64,000 nucleotides of DNA, taken from Arenicella chitinivorans (GTDB lineage: Bacteria > Pseudomonadota > Gammaproteobacteria > Arenicellales > Arenicellaceae). The position numbers and the translations under genes were made by a program. The first letter of the stretch is position 1. Each line of letters opens with the position of its first letter. A model generated the notes under the pieces. That model ran no database searches, had not been told where the DNA came from, and saw nothing but the letters and a program-made list of their open reading frames with translations. Location: positions 806,001 to 870,000 of the forward strand of contig NZ_BMXA01000001.1 of assembly GCF_014651515.1 (NCBI RefSeq), in the 5' to 3' direction. Of the stretch, positions 57,463-63,658 are shown piece after piece.

Positions 57463-59007
57463 TTATTTAGAAGCAGGTTTGCTGGTTGTTGACCTATTTT
57501 TATTGCCGCTTTTCTTCTTGCGTTTGGTCATGACCTTGGTTTGGTTCTTTTCTGAGCGTACTTGTTTGGTGGTGGACTGTGCTTCGCGGACCCCATCTGC
57601 AGATGTTGCTTGATGTAATTCGGCAAATGCGTCATTGAGGCAGCGAGCGTAAAATGCCGGGTCCGGCATCATCTCACGACACGCACTAATGGTGATGTTG
57701 AATTTGCCGCAGTAACTTCCCAGCCCGTGAAATAAACCCATGCCATCAATGGGTGGTCCAAGCGCGAACGAGCTTAACATTTTTGCGCCGGTAAAATACA
57801 GCGGAATTTGAGGTCCTGGAACGTTGGTAATCACACAGTTGTATGCTGGCTTAACTCGATTGGCCATGCCGAGCTGGCTGTAAAGCCGAGCTGCCGCTGC
57901 AGACAGTGTGGAGGGGATGAATTGAGCGTAATCGGTCATGGTTTTTGCGCCAACCGCATTCGTCAATTGTTTTGCCGCGCGTGTGCTTTTATGCACGAAA
58001 TCTAGACGCGCGAGCGGGTCATCAATCTGGCTGCCTACTTCTACGGTCATCTGAGAGACTTGGTTTCCGGCTGTTCCGCGTTTGTCATGTGTGCGCACGT
58101 TGATTGGTGCCATTGCAACCAAAGAGCGTTCCGGTAATTCCTGTTTATCGGCGAGGTATCGTCGTAATGCACCACCGCAGATTGCAATTGCCACGTCGTT
58201 GACGGTCACGCCGGGCACGGCGTTCTTAATGGCTTTGATTGCGTCAAGGTCGAACTCGGCGGCTTCGACCACGCGGTGTGGTGATACATTGGTGTTAAAT
58301 CGTGTGCGCGGAATATCTGTAATGCGTTTTAGTCGCCCGCGGGCTAATCCGGTGGCCATCTTTGCTAAACCGGGTACGGAGTTTTTGGCGACCTCGAATA
58401 CTCGACGAGGGGTCCTCAACGAATTGATTTGTGAGCGCCAGATGAGTTCCATGGCAGTTGGTTTGCGGTCGGTAGTCACTGGCTCAATCTGTTGATCTAC
58501 GTTGTAGTCCGGGCTCAAATCATGGATGGTCGCGGCAATTTCAATGCCAGACGCACCATCAATTGCGGCATGATGCATCTTTGTCACCAAAGCGAAGCAG
58601 CCGGATGGATAGCCTTCAAGATTGTCCAGTCCTTCGATTACATACATTTCCCACAAGGGTCGCGCTCGATCTAATGGGCGTGCATGTAGGCGCGCAACTT
58701 GAATACATAATTGTCGCCAATCGCCAGGCTTGGGCAGCGCGATGTGTCGAATATGAAACTCGGGATCAAATTGACCGGCTGAGCGCCAATACGGGTGGTC
58801 GAGTTTGAGTGGGACTTCGAGTAACACGTTGTTGAAAGTAGCAACCATATGGGCGCGCTGCGCTACGTTGGCGAGAATCTGCTTAAAGCCAACTTTGCCA
58901 TCCTTTGCTGTGCTCGGATCGTAAATCGTTAGCCCGCCGATGTGCATTGGCGAGTTTGGGGTTTCTAGGTATAAAAACGACGCATCTAAACCGCTTAGCT
59001 GTTGCAC
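57463..59007 (-). CDS. Wax ester synthase/diacylglycerol acyltransferase (WS/DGAT)
   Basis: The 514-residue acyltransferase joins acyl-CoA to a fatty alcohol or diacylglycerol. The active site HHxxxDG is complete: His145, His146, Asp150 and Gly151 in KMHHAAIDGASG. PLWEMYVIEGL and the later NVPGPQIPLYFTG are family segments. The last 30-odd residues (from nt about 57560) form a Lys/Arg/Ser-rich tail not usual for the family. It should produce wax esters or triacylglycerol inclusions. It is divergent from rpsB. Confidence 0.9.
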   Translation of the reverse strand: MQQLSGLDASFLYLETPNSPMHIGGLTIYDPSTAKDGKVGFKQILANVAQRAHMVATFNNVLLEVPLKLDHPYWRSAGQFDPEFHIRHIALPKPGDWRQLCIQVARLHARPLDRARPLWEMYVIEGLDNLEGYPSGCFALVTKMHHAAIDGASGIEIAATIHDLSPDYNVDQQIEPVTTDRKPTAMELIWRSQINSLRTPRRVFEVAKNSVPGLAKMATGLARGRLKRITDIPRTRFNTNVSPHRVVEAAEFDLDAIKAIKNAVPGVTVNDVAIAICGGALRRYLADKQELPERSLVAMAPINVRTHDKRGTAGNQVSQMTVEVGSQIDDPLARLDFVHKSTRAAKQLTNAVGAKTMTDYAQFIPSTLSAAAARLYSQLGMANRVKPAYNCVITNVPGPQIPLYFTGAKMLSSFALGPPIDGMGLFHGLGSYCGKFNITISACREMMPDPAFYARCLNDAFAELHQATSADGVREAQSTTKQVRSEKNQTKVMTKRKKKSGNKNRSTTSKPASK

Positions 59008-59300
59008 ACCACACCTTCCTTTACGTTACGTGAAAGCATGCATCATACCGTGTCCTCGTTGCTGCGTTCCAGTGGCTGCTTGGCGTCCGCAAAACAGCTC
59101 TTTTTAGCGCATAAATTCTTTGCATTCACGGGTCCCTGTGGTATAAACGCGCCTCAACTTAAATCATCCGATTATCACTACTGACAGTTGGGTGCTTTCT
59201 GAGCCTGTAAGTAATTGAAAATTCAGTTTTTTTAAGGGTCAGAAGGTTAACTGTCTAGATCATTCGGATTTGTCTAAACCCGTACAATTTGGAGTACATT
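59008..59300. other. 293-bp region with the rpsB leader
   Basis: It contains the rpsB promoter listed separately and a leader of about 145 nt. A 60-codon frame at 59002 crosses the promoter and is taken as chance. A structured leader for autoregulation by S2 is known in E. coli; I did not verify one here. Confidence 0.5.
59120..59147 (+). promoter_or_regulatory. Promoter of rpsB-tsf
   Basis: TTGCAT (59120-59125) and TATAAA (59142-59147) are 16 nt apart. The start would fall near 59154, leaving a leader of about 145 nt, similar in size to the E. coli rpsB leader. Confidence 0.65.
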
Positions 59301-60320
59301 ATGTCAGACGTTACCATGCGCCAGATGCTTGAGGCAGGCGTACATTTCGGCCATCAAACTCGTTACTGGTCACCTAAAATGCGCCCGTTTATCTTCGGTG
59401 AGCGCAACAAGATCCATATCATTAACCTGGAAGAAACACTCCCAATGTTCAATGACGCGATGAATTACATCGGTCAGATCGCCGGTAATGGTGGGCAAGT
59501 GATGATGGTTGGTACTAAACGTTCTGCCAGTAAGCTGATTAAAGAAGCGGCTGAGCGTGCAGGTACTCCGTATGTTAACCATCGCTGGTTGGGCGGCATG
59601 CTGACCAACTTCAAAACGGTAAAGAATTCAATCAAGCGTTTGAAAGAGCTCGACACCCAGTTAGTCGAGGGCACCAACACACGTTTGAGCAAAAAGGAGT
59701 CGCTGACCCTAGAACGTGAGCGCGTCAAGTTAGAGCGCAGTTTGGGCGGTATCAAAAACATGCAGGGTCTGCCTGATTGCTTGTTTATTGTTGATGTGAA
59801 AAACGAGTACATTGCGATTCAGGAAGCAAACAAACTGGGTATTCCAGTGGTTGCAGTGGTGGACACAAACTGCACGCCAGACGGTGTTGATTATGTAATC
59901 CCAGGTAACGACGATGCGATCCGTGCCATCAGCTTGTATTCAGAAGCCGTCGCGGAAACCATCATCAATGCACGCGCGGCAGCGCAGATTAAATCTGCAC
60001 TGACAGATGGCGATGAAGAGTATGTTGAAGTTGTCGAAGCCGTCGAAGCTCAAGAGCCTGTTGCTGAAGCCGTGCCAGAAGCGGTCGAAGCTGTTGAAGC
60101 GACACCTGTGGCCGACGCGGCGAGTGGTGATGAGTTGACCGAAATTAACGGTATTGGCCCGGTTATCGCTGGCAAGCTGAAAGACATTGGTATTACCACG
60201 TTTAAGCAAATTGCTGATTTCACAGCTGAAGACATTGAGCGTGTGGATGCCGAGCTGAATTTCAAAGGTCGCATCGAGCGTGAAGAGTGGGTTGCTCAAG
60301 CGAAAGAAAAAATCGCTTAA
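59301..60320 (+). CDS. rpsB: Ribosomal protein S2 with C-terminal helix-hairpin-helix extension
   Basis: The 339-residue product contains a complete S2 of the 30S subunit in about residues 1-233 ([53 protein letters not shown]). It continues through an acidic EAV/PEA-rich linker (about 237-275) into a helix-hairpin-helix domain (about 276-339; [20 protein letters not shown], then [18 protein letters not shown]). Usual bacterial S2 is about 240-250 residues, so some 90 residues are added. The extension is in frame and not a separate gene. The ATG at 59301 has GGAG 8 nt upstream; the in-frame TTG at 59289 overlaps that site. Confidence 0.95.
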
Positions 60321-60379
60321 TCTGCTAAGTTATTGAATTGGCAAGAATATAACCTCGTAAGAATTAGATAGGTGAAATT

Positions 60380-61258
60380 ATGGCAATTACTGCCGCATTA
60401 GTTAAAGAGCTGCGCGAGCGTACTGGCGCGGGCATGATGGAATGCAAGAAAATGTTGACCGAAACCAACGGTGACATTGATGCAGCGATTGAAGAACTGC
60501 GTAAGCGTGGTGCTGCTCAGGCTGACAAAAAAGCCGGTCGTGTTGCTGCCGAAGGGACTATCGTGACCTTGGTAGAAGGTAACAAGGCTGTCGCCGTGGA
60601 AGTGAATTCAGAAACTGATTTCTCTGCCAAAGATACGTTTTTTGTTGAGTTCGCCAATCAGGTTGCTCAAACCGTTATGGCCGCGCAACCTGCCGACCTA
60701 GAAGCGTTGATGAACGCTGAAATTGAAGCGGGCAAAACAGTGGAATCGGCTCGGCAATCATTGATTCAAAAAATTGGTGAGAACATCACTGTACGTCGTT
60801 TTGAGCTGGTGGAAGCTGGTGATGGCGAAGTGGTAGGTGCATATCAGCACGGGACAAAAATTTCAGTGTTGACGCGCCTTGCGAGCGGCAGTGAAGAGCT
60901 TGCTAAAGACATTGCCATGCATGTCGCCGCGAGTAGCCCAGTGTGTATATCTGCCGATCAAGTACCGACTGAGCTGCTGGAAAAGGAGCGTGAGATTTTC
61001 GCGGCGCAGGCAGCTGAAAGCGGTAAACCTGCTGAAATCATGGAAAAAATGGTTGAAGGTCGGATTCGTAAGTACTTGAATGAAGTCACCTTGCTCGGCC
61101 AGTCTTTTGTTAAAGACCCTGACCAAACTGTTGAGAAGTTGTTAAAATCAGCAGGCGCAAGCGTGGTGCAATTTGTGCGCTATGAAGTCGGTGAAGGTAT
61201 CGAGAAGAAAGAAGATGACTTTGTTGGCGAGGTGATGGCTCAAGCTGGTAAAGCTTAA
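60380..61258 (+). CDS. tsf: Translation elongation factor Ts
   Basis: The 292-residue guanine-nucleotide exchange factor reloads EF-Tu with GTP. It has the N-terminal UBA-like domain ([19 protein letters not shown]), the core with the conserved [19 protein letters not shown], a second subdomain and the C-terminal module ([17 protein letters not shown]). It follows rpsB by 59 nt and is terminated by a strong hairpin at 61275. Confidence 0.97.
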
Positions 61259-61274
61259 GTTCGAACCGTAAACT

Positions 61275-61317
61275 AACGACTTCTCACCGCGCATGCAGTG
61301 AGAGGTCGTTTTTGTTT
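61275..61317 (+). terminator. Intrinsic terminator after tsf
   Basis: A 13-bp stem with one G-U pair (61275-61287 with 61298-61310) and a 10-nt loop is followed by TTTGTTT, the stem itself ending in TT. It separates rpsB-tsf from pyrH-frr-uppS-cdsA. Confidence 0.88.
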
Positions 61318-61372
61318 CTGCACGACCCAAAATTGAAAAACTAATCTAAACTGACCACGAGACAACACGCTT

Positions 61373-62113
61373 ATGTCGACTAAAACCCCTAACTCCGGCT
61401 TTCGACGTATCTTGCTCAAGTTGAGTGGTGAAGCACTGGCCGGAAGCGCTGAAGACAAAAAATTTGGCATTGATGCCAAGACGCTCGATGGCGTGTGCAA
61501 GGAAATCGCTGGTGTGATTGAGTCCGGTACACAGGTCGCCGTCGTGATTGGTGGCGGTAACTTTTTTCGCGGTATCTCGGCATCCGAGTCGGGTATCGAG
61601 CGAGCTACAGCCGATTATATCGGCATGCTGGCCACCGTCATGAATGCACTGGCCGTGCAACAAGGATTAAAACAAGTTGGTATCGAAGCTCGGGTGCAAT
61701 CTGCTATCCCGATCTCCCCAGTATCTGAACCTTACGTTCGTTTGCGCGCGCTTAAGCATCTGAATTTAGGCCGCGTGGTTATCTTCGCCGCCGGTACCGG
61801 CAACCCTTATTTTACGACGGATACTGCGGCCAGCCTGCGTGCTGCCGAGATCAATGCAGATATTCTGGTTAAGGCGACTAAAGTGGACGGTGTGTATGAC
61901 TCCGATCCGGCCACAAATCCTGACGCCACGCGTTATGAGCAGGTTACTTACGATGAAGTGTTGCAAAAGCGTTTAGGGGTTATGGACGCGACAGCCATTG
62001 CCTTGTGTCGAGACAACAATATGCCAATGCGTGTACTGTCAATCAGCGAAGAGGGCGCATTGCGTCGTATGGCTACCGGTGGTTCGGTTGGCACGTTGAT
62101 AACCAGTGCCTGA
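61373..62113 (+). CDS. pyrH: UMP kinase
   Basis: The 246-residue enzyme phosphorylates UMP with ATP. Amino-acid-kinase-fold motifs are [37 protein letters not shown] and [16 protein letters not shown]. The hexameric bacterial UMP kinase length is about 240. It lies between tsf and frr, the conserved order, but a terminator precedes it, so it should have its own promoter or depend on partial read-through. Confidence 0.97.
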
Positions 62114-62216
62114 TGCTTAGCTGGATTCCCCGGCCTGGTTTGCGTACACTGTGGACGCGCGCCAAACGCGATATTTCCCCATACTTGATTGAGTCCCCGA
62201 TTATAGAGGCGAAGAC

Positions 62217-62774
62217 ATGATTGAAGATATTCTAAAAGACGCTGAACAGCGCATGAAAAAAAGTATTGAAGCTATGCGTGGCGAAATGGCGAAGATTCGG
62301 ACTGGGCGTGCCAGTTCGGCACTAATCGACCATTTGACCGTAGACTATTATGGTACGGCGACGCCGATCAACCAGGTGGCGAATGTGTCCGTGCAAGATG
62401 CGCGCACCTTAGCAGTACAGCCTTGGGAGAAGAACATGGTTCCCGTCGTTGAGCGTGCGATTATGGAGGCGAACCTCGGATTCAACCCGGTTACAGCGGG
62501 CGATATTATTCGTATTCCAATGCCGCCGTTGACGGAAGAGCGCCGCAAGGAAATGGTCAAGGTCGCAGCCGCGGAAGGCGAGAATGGTAAAGTTGCAATT
62601 CGGAATATTCGTCGTGACGCGAACAGTGATTTCAAGTCGCTTTTGAAGGATAAGGAGATCAGCGAAGATGAAGAGAAACAAGCTGAAGACAGCGTGCAAA
62701 AGCTAACTGATAAATACGTTGCTGAAGTCGACGAAGTCGTCAAAGAGAAGGAAGCCGAAATTCTGACGGTGTGA
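62217..62774 (+). CDS. frr: Ribosome recycling factor
   Basis: The 185-residue factor splits post-termination ribosomes with EF-G. It has the three-helix domain and hinge domain; [38 protein letters not shown] and the [19 protein letters not shown] helix are family-specific. The length is 185, as in E. coli. Its stop overlaps the uppS GTG by 4 nt. Confidence 0.97.
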
Positions 62775-63658
62775 AGCTGACAGAGATTGATCTGTTGAGC
62801 GCACTTCGCCTTCCTATGCTAACTAAATTACGCACACTTTTGGGTTTGTATCGCTCATCTGCTCCAAGGCGGATTCCAGATATCAACCCTAAGCCGAACC
62901 ATGTTGCCGTCATCATGGACGGCAACGGTCGTTGGGCCAATGCGCAGGGTTTGTCTCGTGTCGCTGGCCACAAACGTGGTGTTGATTCGGTCAAATCCTT
63001 GATCAAGAGCTGCATTCAACACGATATCGGCTATCTTTCTATCTTTGCGTTTAGTAGCGAAAACTGGCGCCGCCCACAGTCCGAAGTCGATGCCTTGATG
63101 GACCTGCTTGGTAACGCGTTAGAGACTCAAACCAAGAAGCTTAATGAAAATGGTGTGCGTCTAAAATTGCTGGGTGACCTGACACGTTTCAGTCCTCGAA
63201 TTCAGCAGTTAGCCGCGCAGGCTCAAGCAGAGACTGCGCATAACACCAAGTTGGTGTTCGCAGTGGCGATTAATTATGGTGGACGTTGGGACATCGCACA
63301 AGCGAGTCGTCGTTTAGCCGAAAAAGTAGAACGCGGTGAGATGGCCGCGGCACACGTCACCGAAGATGCGATCGCCAGTGAGCTCGTGACAGCGGACATG
63401 CCTGACCCCGATTTGTTTATTCGCACCTCAGGCGAGTATCGCATTAGCAATTTCTTGTTATGGCAGGCTGCGTACGCCGAGTTTTATTTTACCGACGTGT
63501 TGTGGCCGGACTTTGATGAGCACGAGTTCACCGAAGCTTTACTAAAATATACGCGGCGTGATCGTCGTTTCGGCGGGGCTGTGGATAAAGTTCAAGGTGA
63601 TGGTGTCGCGCCCGCCGAAAATGACAATACCGATCCGGCGCGCGGAGAAGCAGCCTAG
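62771..63658 (+). CDS. uppS: Undecaprenyl diphosphate synthase
   Basis: The 295-residue cis-prenyltransferase builds the C55 carrier for peptidoglycan and other surface polymers. [11 protein letters not shown] (Asp50 catalytic), [24 protein letters not shown] and FTDVLWPDF are the family motifs. It is longer than the usual 250 residues, with about 37 residues before the core and a Glu/Asp/Ala tail. The start is GTG at 62771, overlapping frr by 4 nt; an internal ATG at 62816 is an alternative. cdsA follows immediately. Confidence 0.95.

Follow-up and report, generated by a model that had tools for sequence, protein, structure and literature searches.

We analysed a 64,000-nucleotide stretch of the Arenicella chitinivorans genome (contig NZ_BMXA01000001.1; hereafter the window), in which ribosomal protein S2 is encoded together with a C-terminal extension. 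An ATG at position 59,301 of the forward strand opens an rpsB frame of 339 codons that ends at 60,320, and its 339-residue product consists of an S2 core, a linker and a helix-hairpin-helix (HhH) module. The core (residues 1-226; 59,301-59,978) is matched above cut-off by both PF00318 (residues 9-223, 316.9 bits) and TIGR01011 (residues 4-226, 334.4 bits). About 113 residues lie beyond the core model; the original prediction, made from this sequence alone, put the extension at about 90, which is a fair figure if a normal S2 is allowed a short tail of its own. Extended S2 proteins of this kind are already annotated, without a function, as NCBIfam NF008966 (PRK12311), a 334-position S2 model that shares the core and the C-terminal module end to end: residues 2-337 align to model positions 4-329, but the score of 385.1 bits is below the curated membership cut-off of 526. 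The protein does not qualify as the S2 sunset-domain variant: NF051451 gives 282 bits against a cut-off of 710, with only 1-269 of 382 aligned and its C-terminal part unmatched. Four further NCBIfam models, which describe L21, NuoE and the phasin PhaH (NF008915, NF008916, NF009040 and NF045508), match with their C-terminal parts stretches that start at residues 196-227 and end at 336. Downstream of rpsB (60,380-63,658) lie frames recognised by eye as tsf, pyrH, frr and uppS, giving the order rpsB-tsf-pyrH-frr, and an Rfam search of 58,900-60,500 for a leader RNA returned no matches at E≤1.

As modelled, the S2 tail is a flexible acidic linker followed by a small folded HhH-class domain. The linker (residues 227-276; 59,979-60,128) has a net charge of -12 over the 37 residues counted and is mostly predicted to be disordered: AlphaFold2, run with 31 S2 homologues, returned a confident core, pLDDT values below 50 at residues 238-251 and 255-274, and block means of 94-97 for the module from residue 281 on. 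The start of the linker is marked by EYVEV (residues 240-244; 60,018-60,032); a loose version of this pattern occurs in 24 of the 31 rows of our S2 alignment (A3), and similar stretches are found in S2 tails of the order, also where the module is missing. The module itself (residues 277-339; 60,129-60,317), predicted on its own from an alignment of 141 modules, folds as a compact HhH domain of five helices with a pLDDT of 90.4 and a pTM of 0.75. The fusion of S2 to an HhH domain through an acidic linker, as originally predicted, is thus borne out. Against HHH_5 (PF14520), residues 277-315 score 31.1 bits when the module is searched alone and 26.0 bits in the whole protein, on either side of the gathering cut-off of 27.

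The residues shared among modules are all present in the window protein. They include the G-x-G hairpin typical of nucleic-acid-binding HhH domains (residues 282-293; 60,144-60,179), with G284, G286 and, according to the column table and residue counts, a ribosome-type lysine at K292. Q303 follows, and then a C-terminal signature (residues 323-334; 60,267-60,302) made up of R324, R327, W330, Q333 and A334, which is near-invariant over most hosts and partly lost in one family from outside the class, f227.

The extension is a stable feature of the genus. S2 was found in 17 of the 18 Arenicella-like genomes searched, our own included, and each of these genes runs on in frame into the module. The 18th genome, which is 82% complete, gave no full S2 match, just a match to the tail within a shorter frame. 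The best named matches of the module also come from uncultured Arenicella genomes. Because all 17 genes carry the extension in the same frame, a sequencing error, frameshift or lost stop codon, which would have undone the original prediction, is ruled out. Genus members share on average 0.89 pairwise identity in the core (residues 8-226), 0.42 in the linker (241-275) and 0.79 in the module. Comparison of S2 sequences does not favour the idea that a complete extended rpsB arrived from another class, as the window S2 is closer to S2 of its own order outside the genus (56-69% identity) than to that of 20 hand-picked genomes outside the class (46-54%).

A profile built from 141 of the about 167 modules collected (alignment A4) finds the module on two proteins of the A. 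chitinivorans genome (99.6% complete): L21 (E 2.7e-32) and S2 (E 5.3e-31). The original prediction had mentioned HhH tails on L21 of some alphaproteobacteria, and this was correct; that the same genome carries one on L21, and on no other protein that the profile finds, was beyond what could be seen from the window. The profile found no third module: its next match, at E 0.04 in what looks by eye like a DinB frame, was dropped as weak, as was a match from a separate search (E 0.018) in a frame that looks like FtsK. In genus relatives (L035-L039) a third protein does carry the module; its open frame spans 142-206 codons and seems by eye to begin with a hydrophobic stretch, and no such protein was found in our genome.

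The S2 and L21 modules of A. chitinivorans are 74% identical. Over the genus, mean module identity is 0.79 among S2, 0.84 among L21 and 0.65 between the two; it is 0.57 between our S2 module and 70 further L21 modules, and 0.47 between the genus S2 modules and five from transmembrane-anchored proteins. The linkers differ in charge. All 16 genus S2 linkers counted are acidic (-7 to -21), and six from outside the genus range from -20 to +6; these represent 16 of the 17 genus rows and six others, the remaining S2 rows having been missed by the pattern or merged. The L21 linkers, in contrast to those of Arenicella-type S2, are basic: 72 of 73 distinct ones, from all taxa read, are positive, with a median of +7 and a value of +9 for our own. 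By the profile, the genome has one module host per ribosomal subunit, with oppositely charged linkers. This pairing is not supported as a rule, since there are genomes, mostly drafts, in which only the S2 module was found. An S2 module without a detected L21 module is found in G183 (95% complete, one module), in G049 (98%, both matches in the S2 frame) and in all 11 f227 genomes, each of which has one module, on S2.

Beyond the genus the module is widespread. It was detected in 47 of 369 genomes of the class sample at E≤1e-6 and in 98 of 398 genomes of the phylum sample at E≤1e-8. S2 is its host in at least six of the 369 class genomes (our own, G005, G007, G015, G183 and G297), a lower bound as the 52 stronger matching stretches were read, and in 9 of 20 genomes from outside the class, which is no frequency as the sets of 20 and 15 genomes were picked by hand. 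Alphaproteobacteria are named among the carriers of L21 and S2 modules, and the carrier genomes outside the class are probably alphaproteobacterial. Among 82 other host frames, which are the matches fetched and no random sample, Pfam assigns 11 to NuoE-type ferredoxin, three to PHA synthase subunit E, two each to phasin, RND pump and alanine dehydrogenase/PntA, and one to ribosomal protein L19; many of the remainder start with a hydrophobic stretch by eye. The L19 frame, a third ribosomal host, carries the module followed by an acidic tail (L076:931-1830, in G651 of the phylum), and the same genome also has the module on S2 (L219). By eye, loci L166, L167, L185 and L186 place the module on a PntA-type transhydrogenase and an RND efflux permease. 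Two copies occur within one protein at L041, L178 and L181, that at L178 being an L21.

Several of these hosts have been modelled or solved. The NCBIfam models of L21 (PRK12278), NuoE (PRK12373) and the phasin PhaH end in the same module on their different hosts. Two non-ribosomal chains in solved complexes end in it as well: chain a of 9wqv, named as a complex I subunit (profile E 5e-29), and protein-O, a membrane-anchored part of the photosynthetic RC-LH1 complex of Dinoroseobacter shibae (8yy9 chain O, profile E 1e-26). Protein-O has a long flexible loop before the module, the module is untraced in the map and the function is called obscure (PMC12079452). Outside the module family, the nearest solved HhH domains by fold or sequence are those of RadA and a Y-family polymerase; the RadA/Rad51 N-terminal domain is part of the recombinase, whereas the S2 module is a C-terminal tag. 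The fold also resembles the acidic repeats AR1 and AR2 of NusA, with 19-21% identity over the aligned part. These are a separate family, and the NusA acidic repeat model TIGR01954 is not among the NCBIfam matches of S2 up to E 1, a range in which the search filters drop most matches above 0.1. In the literature searched, which leaves most subscription papers outside, we found no discussion of an S2-HhH or L21-HhH fusion.

Among order relatives the S2 tail varies: it may be the module, Lys-rich and H1-like, helix-turn-helix (HTH)-like, or plain acidic, and one relative of the same family (L025) has S2 without the module. At L025, L028-L032 and L240, Lys/Ala-rich repeats that resemble histone H1 by eye replace the module. 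At L227, L239, L243 and L245 there is a recurring HTH-like C-terminal stretch, also by eye; no Pfam family matched the two such tails tried below E 0.07.

Module trees rest on 66 columns and are rough; the tree of 88 modules includes 29 from S2, with f227 left out. Placing the 29 S2 modules in a single clade was rejected (p-AU 0.00135), as was a single clade of the 53 L21 modules (p-AU 0.0105); for the subset of 24 S2 modules from the order and its nearest gammaproteobacterial look-alikes the result was borderline (p-AU 0.055). The 15 S2 rows from the genus are already set apart from the rest by one branch, with support 87/86. As one origin for the 29 S2 modules is rejected, the simplest reading is that the module was joined to S2 repeatedly, or exchanged with L21.

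The charge of the module and the case of f227 bear on what it might bind. In our counts, rows were merged if their modules were identical (linkers, residue counts) or more than 88% identical (the collection of about 167), and the residue counts exclude any module that has over 12 gaps. Net acidic modules make up 34 of 35 S2 rows outside f227, all 11 S2 rows of f227 and 79 of 81 L21 rows. The GxG hairpin is intact in 34/35 S2 rows outside f227, 81/81 of L21 and 85/89 of other hosts. In f227, the S2 module is kept in all 11 genomes read, and neither the GxG nor the R..R pair is present in any of them (0/11 each). Retention of the module after loss of GxG, together with the acidity of most ribosomal copies, speaks against plain DNA or RNA binding. 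The original proposal that the S2 domain could bind rRNA, mRNA or DNA is therefore unsupported as it stood, although the window protein keeps an intact hairpin.

We tentatively favour, at a little less than an even chance, the reading that the tail is a portable protein-docking domain that tethers the ribosome to a partner, in the manner of the NusA acidic repeats. The disordered acidic linker would give the HhH-class domain, itself small, rigid and acidic, the freedom to move over the 30S surface around S2 and capture a partner protein, so that the ribosome would be held near it. The module would work like the NusA repeats, which are compact C-terminal HhH domains, AR2 being reported to bind SuhB and the C-terminal domain of the RNA polymerase (RNAP) alpha subunit (alphaCTD; PMC6614801). 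It would do so as a separate family, apparently fused repeatedly to S2, L21, complex I, transhydrogenase, phasin and membrane-anchored proteins, and on one occasion to L19. We infer that the module docks, that its partner is a protein and that the ribosomal copies share this partner. Several observations weigh against such protein docking: the window S2 and most relatives retain the GIG hairpin, R324 and R327 hardly vary outside f227, the closest relatives of solved structure work on DNA, and the A. chitinivorans NusA, whose frame TIGR01954 matches twice, retains its own two acidic repeats.

The module could instead use its GIG hairpin and conserved Lys and Arg residues to grip DNA (the nucleoid) or mRNA and hold the ribosome there, which we regard as unlikely but the strongest of the alternatives. 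K292, R324 and R327 are conserved in the ribosomal modules outside f227, GxG is intact in most modules, the RadA and polymerase domains are the closest solved HhH domains outside the family, and the H1-like tails seen by eye on other S2 proteins of the order are rich in Lys and Ala. The module is also found on phasins, and PhaM ties PHB granules to the nucleoid in Ralstonia (PMC3556143). Such a tether is hard to reconcile with the net negative charge of nearly all ribosomal modules, with the strongly acidic linker of the window S2 and with f227, which keeps its S2 module without hairpin or arginine pair.

Contact between ribosomes, in which modules bind each other or another ribosome and so pair or stack ribosomes (S2-L21 or S2-S2), is improbable. 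It would suit a genome in which only S2 and L21 were found with the module, on acidic and basic linkers. Two further points favour it: uS2 sits at the 100S dimer interfaces of S. aureus and E. coli (PMC5620080), and two known dimer makers were not found, RMF in none of 61 genomes searched (our own and 60 relatives) and the C domain of long HPF in our own, which has one HPF N-domain protein in a 165-codon open frame. The S2 module occurs without a detected L21 module in G183, G049 and 11 f227 genomes, however, and RND pump and PntA hosts do not fit.

Similarly improbable is a role in coupling transcription to translation, in which the S2 module would imitate NusA AR2 and bind either the alphaCTD or a Nus factor close to where RNAP docks. 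L21 and L19, which also carry the module, belong to the other ribosomal subunit than S2, and nothing would require NuoE, PntA or phasins to sit close to RNAP. NusA in this genome already supplies two acidic repeats, and its repeat family is missing from the S2 matches noted above. The resemblance of the fold to AR1 and AR2 and the reported binding of AR2 to alphaCTD and SuhB do point in this direction, as does the description of uS2 in PMC5620080 as a ribosomal site to which RNAP binds.

Least probable is a mobile C-terminal domain, spread by fusion and kept because it is harmless or aids solubility or folding, as the promiscuity of hosts, the very variable S2 tails of the order and the module-free S2 of a same-family relative might suggest, since every genus S2 found keeps the module at a mean identity of 0.79, the ribosome-type residue set is retained, and S2 gained the module on more than one occasion or exchanged it with L21.

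Returning to the docking of a protein partner, a bolder form of it, which we think quite unlikely, is that the module serves as a transferable address tag in the cell, recognised by a single shared receptor, in a bacterial docking code not yet described. Ribosomes would then be drawn, through S2, L21 and elsewhere L19, to the receptor also used in other species by complex I, transhydrogenase, storage-granule phasins and membrane-anchored proteins, and translation would be placed beside energy membranes or granules. The module is annotated without a role on S2, L21, NuoE and phasins, and in A. chitinivorans it was found on two proteins only. Arenicella-type bacteria, together with f227, where the module was found on S2 alone, are thus clean systems in which to ask what the module binds. 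If there is one receptor, it would amount to a general means of positioning ribosomes and other large assemblies.
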